DNA from: Planctomycetota bacterium
Lineage (GTDB): Bacteria; Planctomycetota; UBA8108; UBA1146
DNA length: 64,000 bases
Reading direction: 5' to 3'
NCBI GenBank assembly: GCA_014240375.1
Contig: JAAZXB010000002.1
Coordinates: forward strand, 124,001 to 188,000
Within the stretch, counting starts at the first letter, position 1. Every line of letters begins with the position of its first letter. A model generated the notes under the pieces. That model was not told where the DNA came from and did no database searches. It saw only the letters and a program-made list of their open reading frames with translations. The translations under genes and the position numbers were made by a program. This document shows, in pieces, positions 33,516 to 48,031 of this stretch.

Positions 33516-34673
33516 ATGACGGTCCTCCTGCTCCAGATACCCGCCCTCAAACTACTGGCCCTCAAAATACTGGCCCTCAAAATACCCGCCCTCAAACTAC
33601 TGGCCCTCAAAATATTGGCCCTCAGTGGCGGCTTGGAACTGCTCCCGCTGGAGCAGCCGCCAGCGCTTCCCGAGCCCGCGATACAGGCCTCCCAGGCGCC
33701 CGACGGCGAAACCGAATCCGCTGCAGGCTTCTCGGGTCACTATCCCGCCGGAGTCGCCTGGTGGGGAACCTGGGAAGGGGCCTCCGTGGAAGCCCGTCGC
33801 AGCGGCAAGCCGATCTTGCTGCTGTCGGCGGCACCTCAGTGTCATGGCATTCCCGGCATCTGGTGACCGGGGAAACAAGAGATGGATCAGAGTCTCTGGT
33901 CCGACCCACTCGTCATCGAAGCGTCACGAAAGTTTGTCTGCGCTCGCCTGGCCACCTATGAAGATGCGGGAGAAGGCAAGTTTCTCGAGGGGATCTACCG
34001 CGGCCGCTCGGGGCAGCTGGAGAACACGGTTTTTGTGATACTCACTTCCGATGGGAAGACGCGCTTGAGTCGATCGGGTCGTAGCCCGACGATGGTCTTT
34101 GGTGGAGCCGTCGGCTGGGAAGGCACCGTACTGGCCCTCGAGATGGATAATATTGCGGAAGCTCACCCTCCACCCAAGGATCACAAGAGCGCCGCTGGCC
34201 CAGCACTTCCCATCGCCAAGAGTGTCCGCCTCGCCGTCAACATCGCCGCATGCGACCGACTCCCGCTGGTGATCAGCTGCGGACTCGATGATACGCAACT
34301 CCAGTCCCTTGCAACGGTGGGCTGGAAAGAACCCTACCTCGGACGCTTATGCTGGGCCTCCACCGACGAGCCAGCACAGTTGAAGGAGGTGGGAATCGAG
34401 AAACCGTCCGCTGGAATCTGGGTCGTCCAGCCCGGCAACTTCGGACTTCAAGTCGAGGTGATCACCAAGGTCGCCGCCGACGCCGATCCGCAGAAGATTG
34501 CCAGAGTTCTCGACCAGGCGCTCGAGACCAGCCGCCGCTCACAGAAATATACCCGCGCCCATGTCGCGCAGGGACAGCGCCTCGGCAAGAAGTGGCAAAC
34601 CGAGATCCCGGTCACCGATCCAGGTATTCCGCCGCAAGGTCGAGGGAGGCCGGGCCGTCGACCCGGAGGTTAA
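33516..34673 (+). CDS. Thioredoxin-like protein with in-frame UGA, candidate selenoprotein
   Basis: The ATG at 33516 opens a frame that is interrupted by one TGA at 33864-33866 and continues in the same frame to TGA at 34671-34673 (385 residues if UGA is read). The N-terminus is a hydrophobic Ala-Leu-Lys-(Ile/Leu)-Leu repeat that may act as a signal anchor. A thioredoxin-like segment follows: RRSGKPILLLSAAPQCHGI, PGIW-UGA-PGKQEM, then EASRKFVCARL. Parts before and after UGA join into one plausible domain, and a hairpin just after UGA resembles a bacterial SECIS element. Alternatives are a nonsense mutation, with a restart at the ATG at 33882, or a sequencing error. The family is otherwise unknown. 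Confidence 0.6.
33546..33620 (+). repeat. 15-bp tandem repeat, five copies, in the N-terminal coding region
   Basis: Five units of the type CTCAAAMTACTGGCC run from 33546 to 33620, with a more diverged sixth before them (33531-33545). Each encodes five residues of the form (Leu)-Lys-(Leu/Ile)-(Leu/Pro)-Ala, giving a hydrophobic, Lys-spaced N-terminus. Confidence 0.92.
33864..33904 (+). promoter_or_regulatory. Candidate bacterial SECIS element
   Basis: Directly after the in-frame TGA (33864-33866), the sequence can fold with lower arms GACC (33865-33868) and GGTC (33898-33901). The upper arms are AGAGA (33878-33882) and TCTCT (33893-33897). The apical loop is UGGAUCAGAG, with G as its second base (or first, if U-G pairs), 17-18 bases after UGA. 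Known bacterial SECIS hairpins lie immediately after UGA with a G at the start of the apical loop at about this distance. The stem is short, so this is suggestive only. Confidence 0.4.
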
Positions 34674-46654: not shown

Positions 46655-48031
46655 TCAGGAGCAGGAGTCGTACACCTCACACCCGAGCGCACCGGGGGTC
46701 GGATCGGGAGCGCAACTACCGGTTCCAGGAGGCATCGGGCCGCCATTGAACAAGGCCGCCAGCATGTGCACGGCATCGGCAATGTTCCCCTGGTTATCGT
46801 CATTACTATCGCAAGCGTTGGCGCAACCGATGGCTCCACCCAGAAAAAGGCCATCGAGCAGGGTGATCGCATCTCCGATGTTGAAGCTGGAATCGTCGTT
46901 GCAATCTCCACGATTGAATCCACCGATCGCCGTGAGCAATACGCTGCCCGCTTGACCGGTCATGTCGATCGATTGCCCATCCACCACCATCACCATGGTG
47001 ACTGCTGTCGGCCCGAGGCCGCTGGTCGGTGTCAACGTGGTCGAGATGCTATCTCCCGGAGGCGTGCCGGCCAGCGGTCCTGGGACCGTGTCATACTGGA
47101 CCAGCACTGCTTCTGTCGGTGTGCCGAAGCCGATGAAGGCTCCTCCCTGAAAATCGTAGATGCAACCGACGGTGATTCCACCGCTGAGGATTCCGACATT
47201 GAAGAACTCCGGGCCGGTTCCCCCTTCAAGATTCGCCAACGCTGCGCCATAGTCGACTGCGGTGGCCTCGAGTACAGCGGCGTCATGGGCCACTCCCAGT
47301 GAGAATCCCTGGGTCTCTGCAGCAGTATCGCCCGGCTCCACGTCCTGATCGATCTGCACGGTTCCTGTGAAGGATCCGACCCCTGTGGAGGAACTGAAAG
47401 TTGCTGTCTGATCGACACAACTCACCTCGAAGGCCATCGGAGGAGCGGCCTGAAAGGTGATCGAAAAGGGCATTCCAGAGGTCGGTGCCGAGGAACCGGC
47501 TCCGATCACCACGACGGTGGTGGCGGGCGGAGTTCCGAGGTCGCTGGCACTGCTGATGGTGGTGACCACATTTCCGGTCGATCCCGAAAGGGCTCCCGGA
47601 ATCGTCGCGTAATCCACCTCGATCATCGGCAGTGGAGTCGCGAAGGTGATGACCTGGGACTGATCGACGAATGCGTAGATCACTCCGACTGTGAAGCCAT
47701 CGGTGAACACCTCACCCTGGATGAAATCCGGTCCTGTGCCGCCATTGAGCGCGGCCAGTGACCCGACAGGAGTCGGGATATAGGGGTTGGATCCCACCAC
47801 TTCCAGCAAGGTCGAATCGTGACCGTAGGCCATCGAAAAGCCCTTGGTCTCCTCGAGTGCACCCGTGACCTGCACGATGCTGAAGGTTGCACTGAATGTT
47901 GCAGAACCTCCGCCCGCAGCGACGGTTTGATCCGGGGATGAGATTTCAAAAGTCTGCCCCAACGCCACAGATGCGGTGAAGAGCACAAACATCGAAACAA
48001 AAATACAGGGAATTAGACCACCATGACGCAT
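46655..48031 (-). CDS. Secreted protein with two cohesin-like domains and dockerin-like tail
   Basis: 458 residues from the ATG at 48031 (AGGAAGAGG site). Signal peptide about 1-25. Two related domains (about 27-195 and 200-370) each contain the block TKGFSMAYGHDSTLLE or TQGFSLGVAHDAAVLE, then GGTGPxF and GxTVGxIYxF. These resemble cohesin or motility-type beta sandwiches and match two domains in the M4 protease next to it. The tail has loops DCNDDSSFNIGD and DSNDDNQGNIAD with hydrophobic helices and ends YDSCS. No enzyme motif; likely a scaffolding or adhesive surface protein. Confidence 0.85.
   Translation of the reverse strand: MRHGGLIPCIFVSMFVLFTASVALGQTFEISSPDQTVAAGGGSATFSATFSIVQVTGALEETKGFSMAYGHDSTLLEVVGSNPYIPTPVGSLAALNGGTGPDFIQGEVFTDGFTVGVIYAFVDQSQVITFATPLPMIEVDYATIPGALSGSTGNVVTTISSASDLGTPPATTVVVIGAGSSAPTSGMPFSITFQAAPPMAFEVSCVDQTATFSSSTGVGSFTGTVQIDQDVEPGDTAAETQGFSLGVAHDAAVLEATAVDYGAALANLEGGTGPEFFNVGILSGGITVGCIYDFQGGAFIGFGTPTEAVLVQYDTVPGPLAGTPPGDSISTTLTPTSGLGPTAVTMVMVVDGQSIDMTGQAGSVLLTAIGGFNRGDCNDDSSFNIGDAITLLDGLFLGGAIGCANACDSNDDNQGNIADAVHMLAALFNGGPMPPGTGSCAPDPTPGALGCEVYDSCS

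Follow-up and report, generated by a model that had tools for sequence, protein, structure and literature searches.

A 2026 review lists 119 prokaryotic selenoprotein families and subfamilies (PMC13188914, Table 1). The described systems that come closest to the protein presented here are: (i) the Trx7/PDZ (seleno)protein NF041199, by its name a selenoprotein with a Thioredoxin_7 domain, for which the published table gives the motif CxxU (PMC13188914), (ii) the VPGUxxT proteins NF041382 and NF041383 (OS_HP5), which are thioredoxin-like selenoproteins, (iii) GOS_C (NF045500), a Sec-containing family of marine bacteria, described from marine metagenomes, with a Trx-like fold, a UxxC motif and 312 listed Cys homologues (PMC2398784), and (iv) SelD (UxxK), PrdC form 2 (UPGQ) and the methyltransferase/UXPK-star protein, whose motif or name resembles UPGK (PMC13188914, Table 1). 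For bacterial SECIS elements, a spacing of 16–37 nt from the UGA and a G in the first two positions of the apical loop are given as limits (PMC13188914). With respect to the relation between Sec and Cys, the 2025 deep-Sep paper states that Cys-containing homologues now seem to exist for all known selenoproteins, and that proteins lacking them may be filtered out; GrdA (glycine reductase selenoprotein A) was once thought to have no such homologues and they were later found (PMC12013277).

In this study, a gene with an in-frame TGA was analyzed in a 64,000-nt stretch of planctomycete DNA (the window), which belongs to a draft genome of 3.39 Mb in 120 contigs (94.8% complete). An initial annotation had described one frame of about 385 codons broken only by a TGA at 33864, and translation bore this out: from the ATG at 33516 to a TAA the frame is open except for TGA 33864–33866, and readthrough gives 385 aa with U117 as the sole interruption. 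With high confidence, the best explanation is a UGA-recoded two-domain thioredoxin-like selenoprotein with a presumed extracytoplasmic redox role; on the sequence evidence presented below, the insertion of selenocysteine at codon 117 is itself almost certain. The features of the locus are as follows (bases of assignment in brackets):

33516–34673, + strand: proposed selenoprotein gene, 385 codons with one TGA read through and a TAA stop, encoding a probably exported, two-domain thioredoxin-like protein (frame and homologues)
33516–33640, + strand: probable signal peptide, a hydrophobic stretch at the N-terminus; tandem repeats of 15 bp and 45 bp at 33537–33624 (predicted from the sequence)
33738–34178, + strand: thioredoxin domain 1, residues 75–221, which holds U117 (model and structural matches)
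33840–33842, + strand: Cys109 codon, proposed selenenylsulfide partner of U117 (Cys in 107 of 109 distinct proteins)
33864–33866, + strand: TGA codon 117, proposed selenocysteine U117 (translation; TGA in all 162 family loci with the position)
33873–33875, + strand: Lys120 codon, three residues after U117, giving UxxK (K in 94, Y in 14 and F in 1 of 109; never Cys)
33883–33903, + strand: SECIS-like hairpin, 33883–33891 pairing with 33895–33903, apical loop GUC at 33892–33894 (fold, conservation and covariation)
33939–33941, + strand: Cys142 codon (Cys in 109 of 109 distinct proteins; model strand 141–146)
34200–34529, + strand: thioredoxin-like domain 2, residues 229–338, without CxxC (model, structural matches and sequence)

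Searches with the window protein gave no NCBIfam match at E ≤ 1 and no Pfam match at its cut-off. When 23 members of the family were searched, the best NCBIfam selenoprotein models were Trx7/PDZ (E 0.0011) and VPGUxxT (E 0.0026), and one cytochrome model matched a single member at 2.8e-4. NF041199 was matched by 17 of the 23 members at E ≤ 1; the family motif is, however, UxxK, and a Pfam scan of the 23 members at E ≤ 0.1 showed no PDZ domain. One member matched type 1 of the VPGUxxT proteins and four matched type 2 (best E 0.021), but the cut-offs of 350 and 275 bits were missed by far and the motif of the family is G-x-W-U-P-G-K. None of the 23 members matched NF045500 (GOS_C), nor the models of SelD, PrdC form 2 and the UXPK-star protein, at E ≤ 1; the latter three are other families. 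GrdA is an unrelated enzyme, and the new family, by contrast, is without an orthologue-level Cys form in the data searched.

The likeness to Thioredoxin_7 (PF13899) is a weak sequence match, seen in 22 of the 23 members at E ≤ 0.1 (best E 7e-7), with the window protein at 17.4 bits against a gathering threshold of 27. The fold was modelled with AlphaFold from an alignment of the 23 sequences, with Cys substituted for Sec (mean pLDDT 82.3, pTM 0.75). Residues 75–221 of this model resemble a domain of an exported Bacteroides protein (3f9u, Z 12.5) and, with Z of about 10–11, DsbH, the C-terminal domain of DsbD, Rp19 (TXNDC12) and AGR2 (VIA-align, rmsd 2.4–3.1 in most rows), while residues 229–338 resemble classical thioredoxins (Z up to 9.5). 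Compared with Thioredoxin_7 and these solved folds, the family has UxxK instead of CxxC, a longer loop that contains C109, and a second thioredoxin domain. No entry for it was found in Table 1 of PMC13188914, and no description in the open-access literature on planctomycete, verrucomicrobial or WUPGK-type selenoproteins, as covered by article texts including passages of PMC4807772, PMC12013277, PMC2398784, PMC9312934 and PMC5029168. The S9 Table of PMC4807772 holds the selenoprotein candidates of two Planctomycetes and might include a member. The selenoprotein family is apparently undescribed so far.

Ordinary ORF calling splits the gene into pieces of 116 aa and 263 aa, and a TGA that occurs once in a draft genome can always be read as a true stop, resulting from a sequencing error, a recent nonsense mutation or the decay of a pseudogene. 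The thioredoxin-type segment that had been seen to continue past the TGA was recovered as a Thioredoxin_7 match across this codon (residues 82–146, E 0.0048, below the threshold given above), and five comparisons with relatives gave dN/dS values of 0.29, 0.51, 0.21, 0.15 and 0.16 downstream of it, the first two from few changes. As judged from these ratios, purifying selection is maintained 3' of the TGA. This persistence, the covariation of the hairpin described below, and the presence of TGA in every one of 162 loci (109 distinct, several phyla) argue against a true stop, to which we assign next to no probability.

The 162 loci are those that have the codon-117 column and a score of 300 or higher against the window protein; they come from three tabulations (132, 25 and 5 loci) and comprise 109 distinct 150-base contexts, many being the same gene met twice. 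They are spread over about a hundred genomes, some with two copies, and the family spans Planctomycetota, Verrucomicrobiota and Eremiobacterota. Two sets used below, 109 distinct proteins and 87 non-redundant genes, were chosen for TGA at the position and a score of at least 300, so their TGA content is by construction and the open count is that of the 162 loci. Loci without the column are L034 and L082, which start after the position at a contig end, and L041/L045, one frameshifted gene; also outside the count are L207, which covers just the C-terminal part (score 197), and the low-scoring L042, L043, L181–L185, L209 and L215–L219, while L046, L047, L158–L177 and L220–L229 are not in the conservation table.

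Matches were found in 26 of 98 related genomes, two of them (G050 and G056, loci L042 and L043) being weak matches to other thioredoxins. When 84,980 species, each represented by one genome, were scanned with a pattern, 111 relatives were obtained, the best 80 of which were taken as named loci; 79 of these 80 keep the TGA and the remaining one is cut by a contig end. Of 392 Planctomycetota genomes searched with a profile, 89 had a match at E ≤ 1e-3 and 52 of these are family members at E ≤ 1e-20; the E-values leave a gap: long family matches lie at or below 1e-70, family fragments at or below 1.2e-10, and all others at or above 4.6e-8. The family was also present in 3 of 387 Verrucomicrobiota genomes and 5 of 149 genomes of the Eremiobacterota phylum. 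In the tree, the planctomycete-named rows L077, L102 and L117 fall among 12 of the 13 Verrucomicrobiota rows (L070 stands apart), a placement that suggests, from sequence relationships, either transfer between phyla or mislabelled bins.

Homologues with either Cys or UGA at codon 117 had been expected, and only the latter were found. No Cys orthologue was seen in the 98 relatives or in the 392 Planctomycetota, 387 Verrucomicrobiota and 149 Eremiobacterota-phylum genomes, no family-level Cys form among the best 80 of the 111 relatives from the 84,980-species pattern scan, and none in the viral contigs and plasmids searched. TGC, TGT or AGC stands at the aligned place only in 12 distant thioredoxin loci that score 49–117 against the window protein. 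These are other thioredoxins; if they are counted as homologues, the domain has Cys relatives at the superfamily level. Several other distant thioredoxin loci have TGA themselves.

A further possibility is that two proteins are made, the N-terminal piece ending at the TGA and the second starting at the ATG of codon 123 (33882), six codons past the TGA, which opens the 263-aa ORF. Met occupies this position in 81 of the 109 distinct proteins, but Thr, Ser, Leu and other residues do so in the remaining 28. According to the model, such a split would cut the thioredoxin domain within its active-site helix, and it leaves the hairpin and the link to SelA unexplained. This reading is vanishingly improbable.

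The initial annotation had also placed a hairpin with a G early in its apical loop 17–18 bases beyond the UGA. In the window, nucleotides 17–25 after the UGA pair with nucleotides 29–37 through nine pairs, two of them G-U, and the loop is GUC, with G as its first base; the stem thus begins 17 nt past the UGA, the loop lies 25 nt from it, and both values fit the published limits. The hairpin alone has an energy of -10.5 kcal/mol and, minus its outermost U-G pair, is the minimum-energy fold over the first 37, 40, 50 and 60 nt. The more stable structure over 45 nt (-12.5) is a second hairpin with the loop GGAUCAGA, which also passes the SECIS model that was applied, i.e. a loop of 3–9 nt with G in the first two positions, a spacing of 16–37 nt and a minimum free energy of at most -7.5. 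This model was passed by 81 of the 87 non-redundant genes, compared with 25–34 of 87 after synonymous codon shuffling (10 repeats), and it is therefore lenient as a general model, given the number of shuffles that pass. Among the six genes that failed it, two (L039 and L186) were without a candidate hairpin.

A sharper result was obtained with the register held fixed (nucleotides 17–25 with 29–37 and a 3-nt loop). At least eight of the nine pairs formed in 77 of the 87 genes, against 3–9 of 87 in the shuffles (10 repeats), and all nine formed in 36. Across the alignment 91.4% of cells were paired, whereas column shuffles gave a mean of 85.0% and a maximum of 86.2%; compensatory double changes were found in 39 cells (shuffle mean 6.9, maximum 13). 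Pairing dropped to 28–55% when the register was slid. The loop has G at its first position in 81 of the 87 genes, U at the second in 81 and U at the third in 76. After the terminal TGA stops of family genes, at least eight of nine pairs were formed at 0 of 31 distinct stops. The window hairpin is beyond chance. Searches with Rfam SECIS_1 over whole genomes gave no match in any genome, with 14 controls likewise silent, and therefore carry no information; cmscan of 33800–34000 at E ≤ 10 reported no SECIS family, only four unrelated families below their cut-offs.

The sel genes whose presence had been proposed as a check were all identified in the source genome. The tRNA-Sec scored 67.5 bits (cut-off 47) and was called tRNA-SeC with anticodon tca by ARAGORN; SelA matched at E 2.6e-127, over the family cut-off, SelB at 390.9 bits (cut-off 242) and SelD at 344 bits (cut-off 125). 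The genes selA, selD and selC (tRNA-Sec) are clustered on one contig, and selB lies about 160 kb off on the same contig (G000 C32, 220922–223345 and 385289–387178). The selD gene carries an in-frame TGA of its own, at residue 28 of the translated stretch. Among the 392 Planctomycetota genomes, SelA (E ≤ 1e-50) was present in 49 of the 52 family genomes compared with 192 of the 340 others (Fisher p 2.1e-8), the family set being defined by E ≤ 1e-20 and the strong SelA set as 271 rows minus 30 weak ones, i.e. 241 of 392. Three family genomes are without a full SelA (none in G005 and G107, a partial match in G290), as is one (G408) of the 22 genomes behind chosen named loci, 21 of which have SelA; genome incompleteness is a possible cause of these few absences.

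Readthrough of TGA is possible in principle also as tryptophan or another ordinary residue, by reassignment or leaky decoding and without selenium. TGA is, however, the terminal stop of six of the seven window ORFs taken as genes and of many homologues (31 distinct terminal TGA stops), and the genome has tRNA-Sec, SelA, SelB and SelD together with a covarying SECIS hairpin, which leaves this reading very improbable. Since TGA is an ordinary stop here and the Sec machinery is present, selective recoding, not an altered code, is indicated. The sel genes, the conserved TGA, the covarying hairpin and the selection after the TGA all support the proposal of the initial annotation that this UGA would encode selenocysteine.

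In thioredoxin domains, redox nucleophiles usually occupy the position just ahead of the active-site helix, and in the model U117 immediately precedes helix 118–125. Cys142, Arg144, Glu149 and Asn170 are invariant in the 109 distinct proteins, while Cys246 is present in 76 of them. The two proteins without Cys109 (L040 and L044) have a Cys elsewhere in the same loop; they form a divergent subfamily with WUKGK in which the Cys is shifted within the loop. The initial annotation had the Cys that lies eight residues ahead of Sec take the usual first redox position, which is one possible reading: in five of seven alignments to CxxC thioredoxins (L042, L043, L181, L215 and L217), C109 was matched with the first Cys of the motif and U117 with the second. 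In the other two (L182 and L183) U117 fell on the first Cys. In L042, L174 and L177, 13 residues separate the first Cys from the Asp/Asn that follows the helix, and U117 lies at the same distance, by which Lys120 would occupy the second Cys position and the preceding loop would be eight residues longer. The helix spacing and the model favour the placement of U117 on the first Cys of CxxC.

The following course of events is proposed for the selenoprotein. SelB and Sec-tRNA, guided by the hairpin 17–37 nt after the UGA, would insert selenocysteine at codon 117 of a probably exported protein with tandem thioredoxin domains, so that Sec would stand directly ahead of the active-site helix of domain 1. 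The U117 selenolate would then attack a peroxide, disulfide or sulfoxide as its oxidised substrate, Cys109, from the loop that precedes Sec, would resolve the product as a selenenylsulfide, and a donor of the DsbD/thioredoxin type might subsequently re-reduce it. A plain CxxC-type disulfide exchange is disfavoured, and a peroxidase- or monothiol-like cycle favoured, because the residue three places past Sec is not a second Cys. We tentatively assign to the protein the function of an oxidoreductase or peroxidase that uses a selenol and acts outside the cytoplasm.

A different role for the selenoprotein is unlikely, though less remote than the readings that dispense with selenium. The selenol might, for instance, bind a metal, or the protein might serve partners as a chaperone or activator, one example of a partner being the sulfatase whose gene adjoins it in one clade. 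Such a role would fit the lack of CxxC, the Lys, Tyr or Phe at position 120 and the loss of C109 in 2 of 109 proteins, but not so readily the modelled position of Sec immediately ahead of the active-site helix. A sulfatase-type gene is found directly downstream on the same strand in ten named loci of Verrucomicrobiota (L081, L083, L084, L092, L093, L095, L100, L101, L107 and L109), with its start between 4 nt before and 75 nt beyond the end of the selenoprotein gene; Pfam Sulfatase was confirmed for L081 only, and in L080 a DUF3500 gene takes this place. Against a general role with such partners, the sulfatase neighbour is mostly missing outside that clade. The window gene is itself flanked by a phosphoesterase gene and by DinB/LOG-type genes on the other strand. 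Comparison of the gene neighbourhoods of the loci revealed no neighbour common to the whole family, and function thus cannot be drawn from context.

Several members (e.g. L038 and L039) have signal-peptide-like starts. In L032 (21–1448; the same gene as L068/L142) a PSCyt1 Planctomycete cytochrome c domain with CxxCH lies in frame between the signal peptide and the thioredoxin domain, an arrangement that may be a real fusion or an assembly effect. Together, the signal-like starts, the hydrophobic N-terminus of the window protein and PSCyt1 in L032 suggest that the protein is probably extracytoplasmic. The tandem repeats of the window gene lie inside the region coding for the hydrophobic N-terminus, and the close relatives L019–L021 have shorter N-termini than the window protein.

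On balance we lean, by a small degree, towards regarding this as a selenocysteine-only family, i.e. a widespread, probably exported, two-domain enzyme whose chemistry Cys would not be able to replace. If this is true, the loss of the Sec machinery from a genome would entail loss of the gene, not a change to Cys, the 2025 claim that all known selenoproteins seem to have Cys homologues (PMC12013277) would be contradicted, and methods based on Cys/TGA pairs would be blind to one class of selenoproteins. Such filters would overlook a Sec-only family of about a hundred genomes, the gene showing up as two ORFs, and the family would offer a direct test of when Cys cannot stand in for Sec. The conserved SECIS (25 nt to the loop, mostly GUU) constitutes a clean element for Sec insertion tests. 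For Planctomycetota, in which a strong SelA match was found in 241 of the 392 sampled genomes, a probable extracytoplasmic redox protein is added.

Other Sec candidates were encountered in the course of these searches. The search for paralogues in the source genome gave only a weak second match, L047 (E 0.198), which was rejected as a clear paralogue and is rather another Sec candidate. This locus (G000:C28, near 47217–47411, - strand) is a thioredoxin-like ORF with an in-frame TGA (GGLUSAGHS), followed by a hairpin of -16.4 kcal/mol over 57 nt, and has a weak match to VPGUxxT type 2 (E 0.0044); it is probably another selenoprotein gene of the source genome, the second one after that in the window. 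Sec thioredoxins seem to be plentiful in Planctomycetota. Thioredoxin-like ORFs with an in-frame TGA in the motif CTUNNG were found in L160, L162, L165, L166, L168, L170 and L185 (ETUNNG in L185), these loci belonging to planctomycete genomes and one Verrucomicrobiota-phylum genome. Thioredoxin_7-type ORFs with an in-frame TGA are also present in L158, L159, L161, L163, L164, L167, L169, L171, L172 and L209; their motifs vary, with UxxC, UxxxC and CU among them, and L169 carries two in-frame TGA codons (UxxU).
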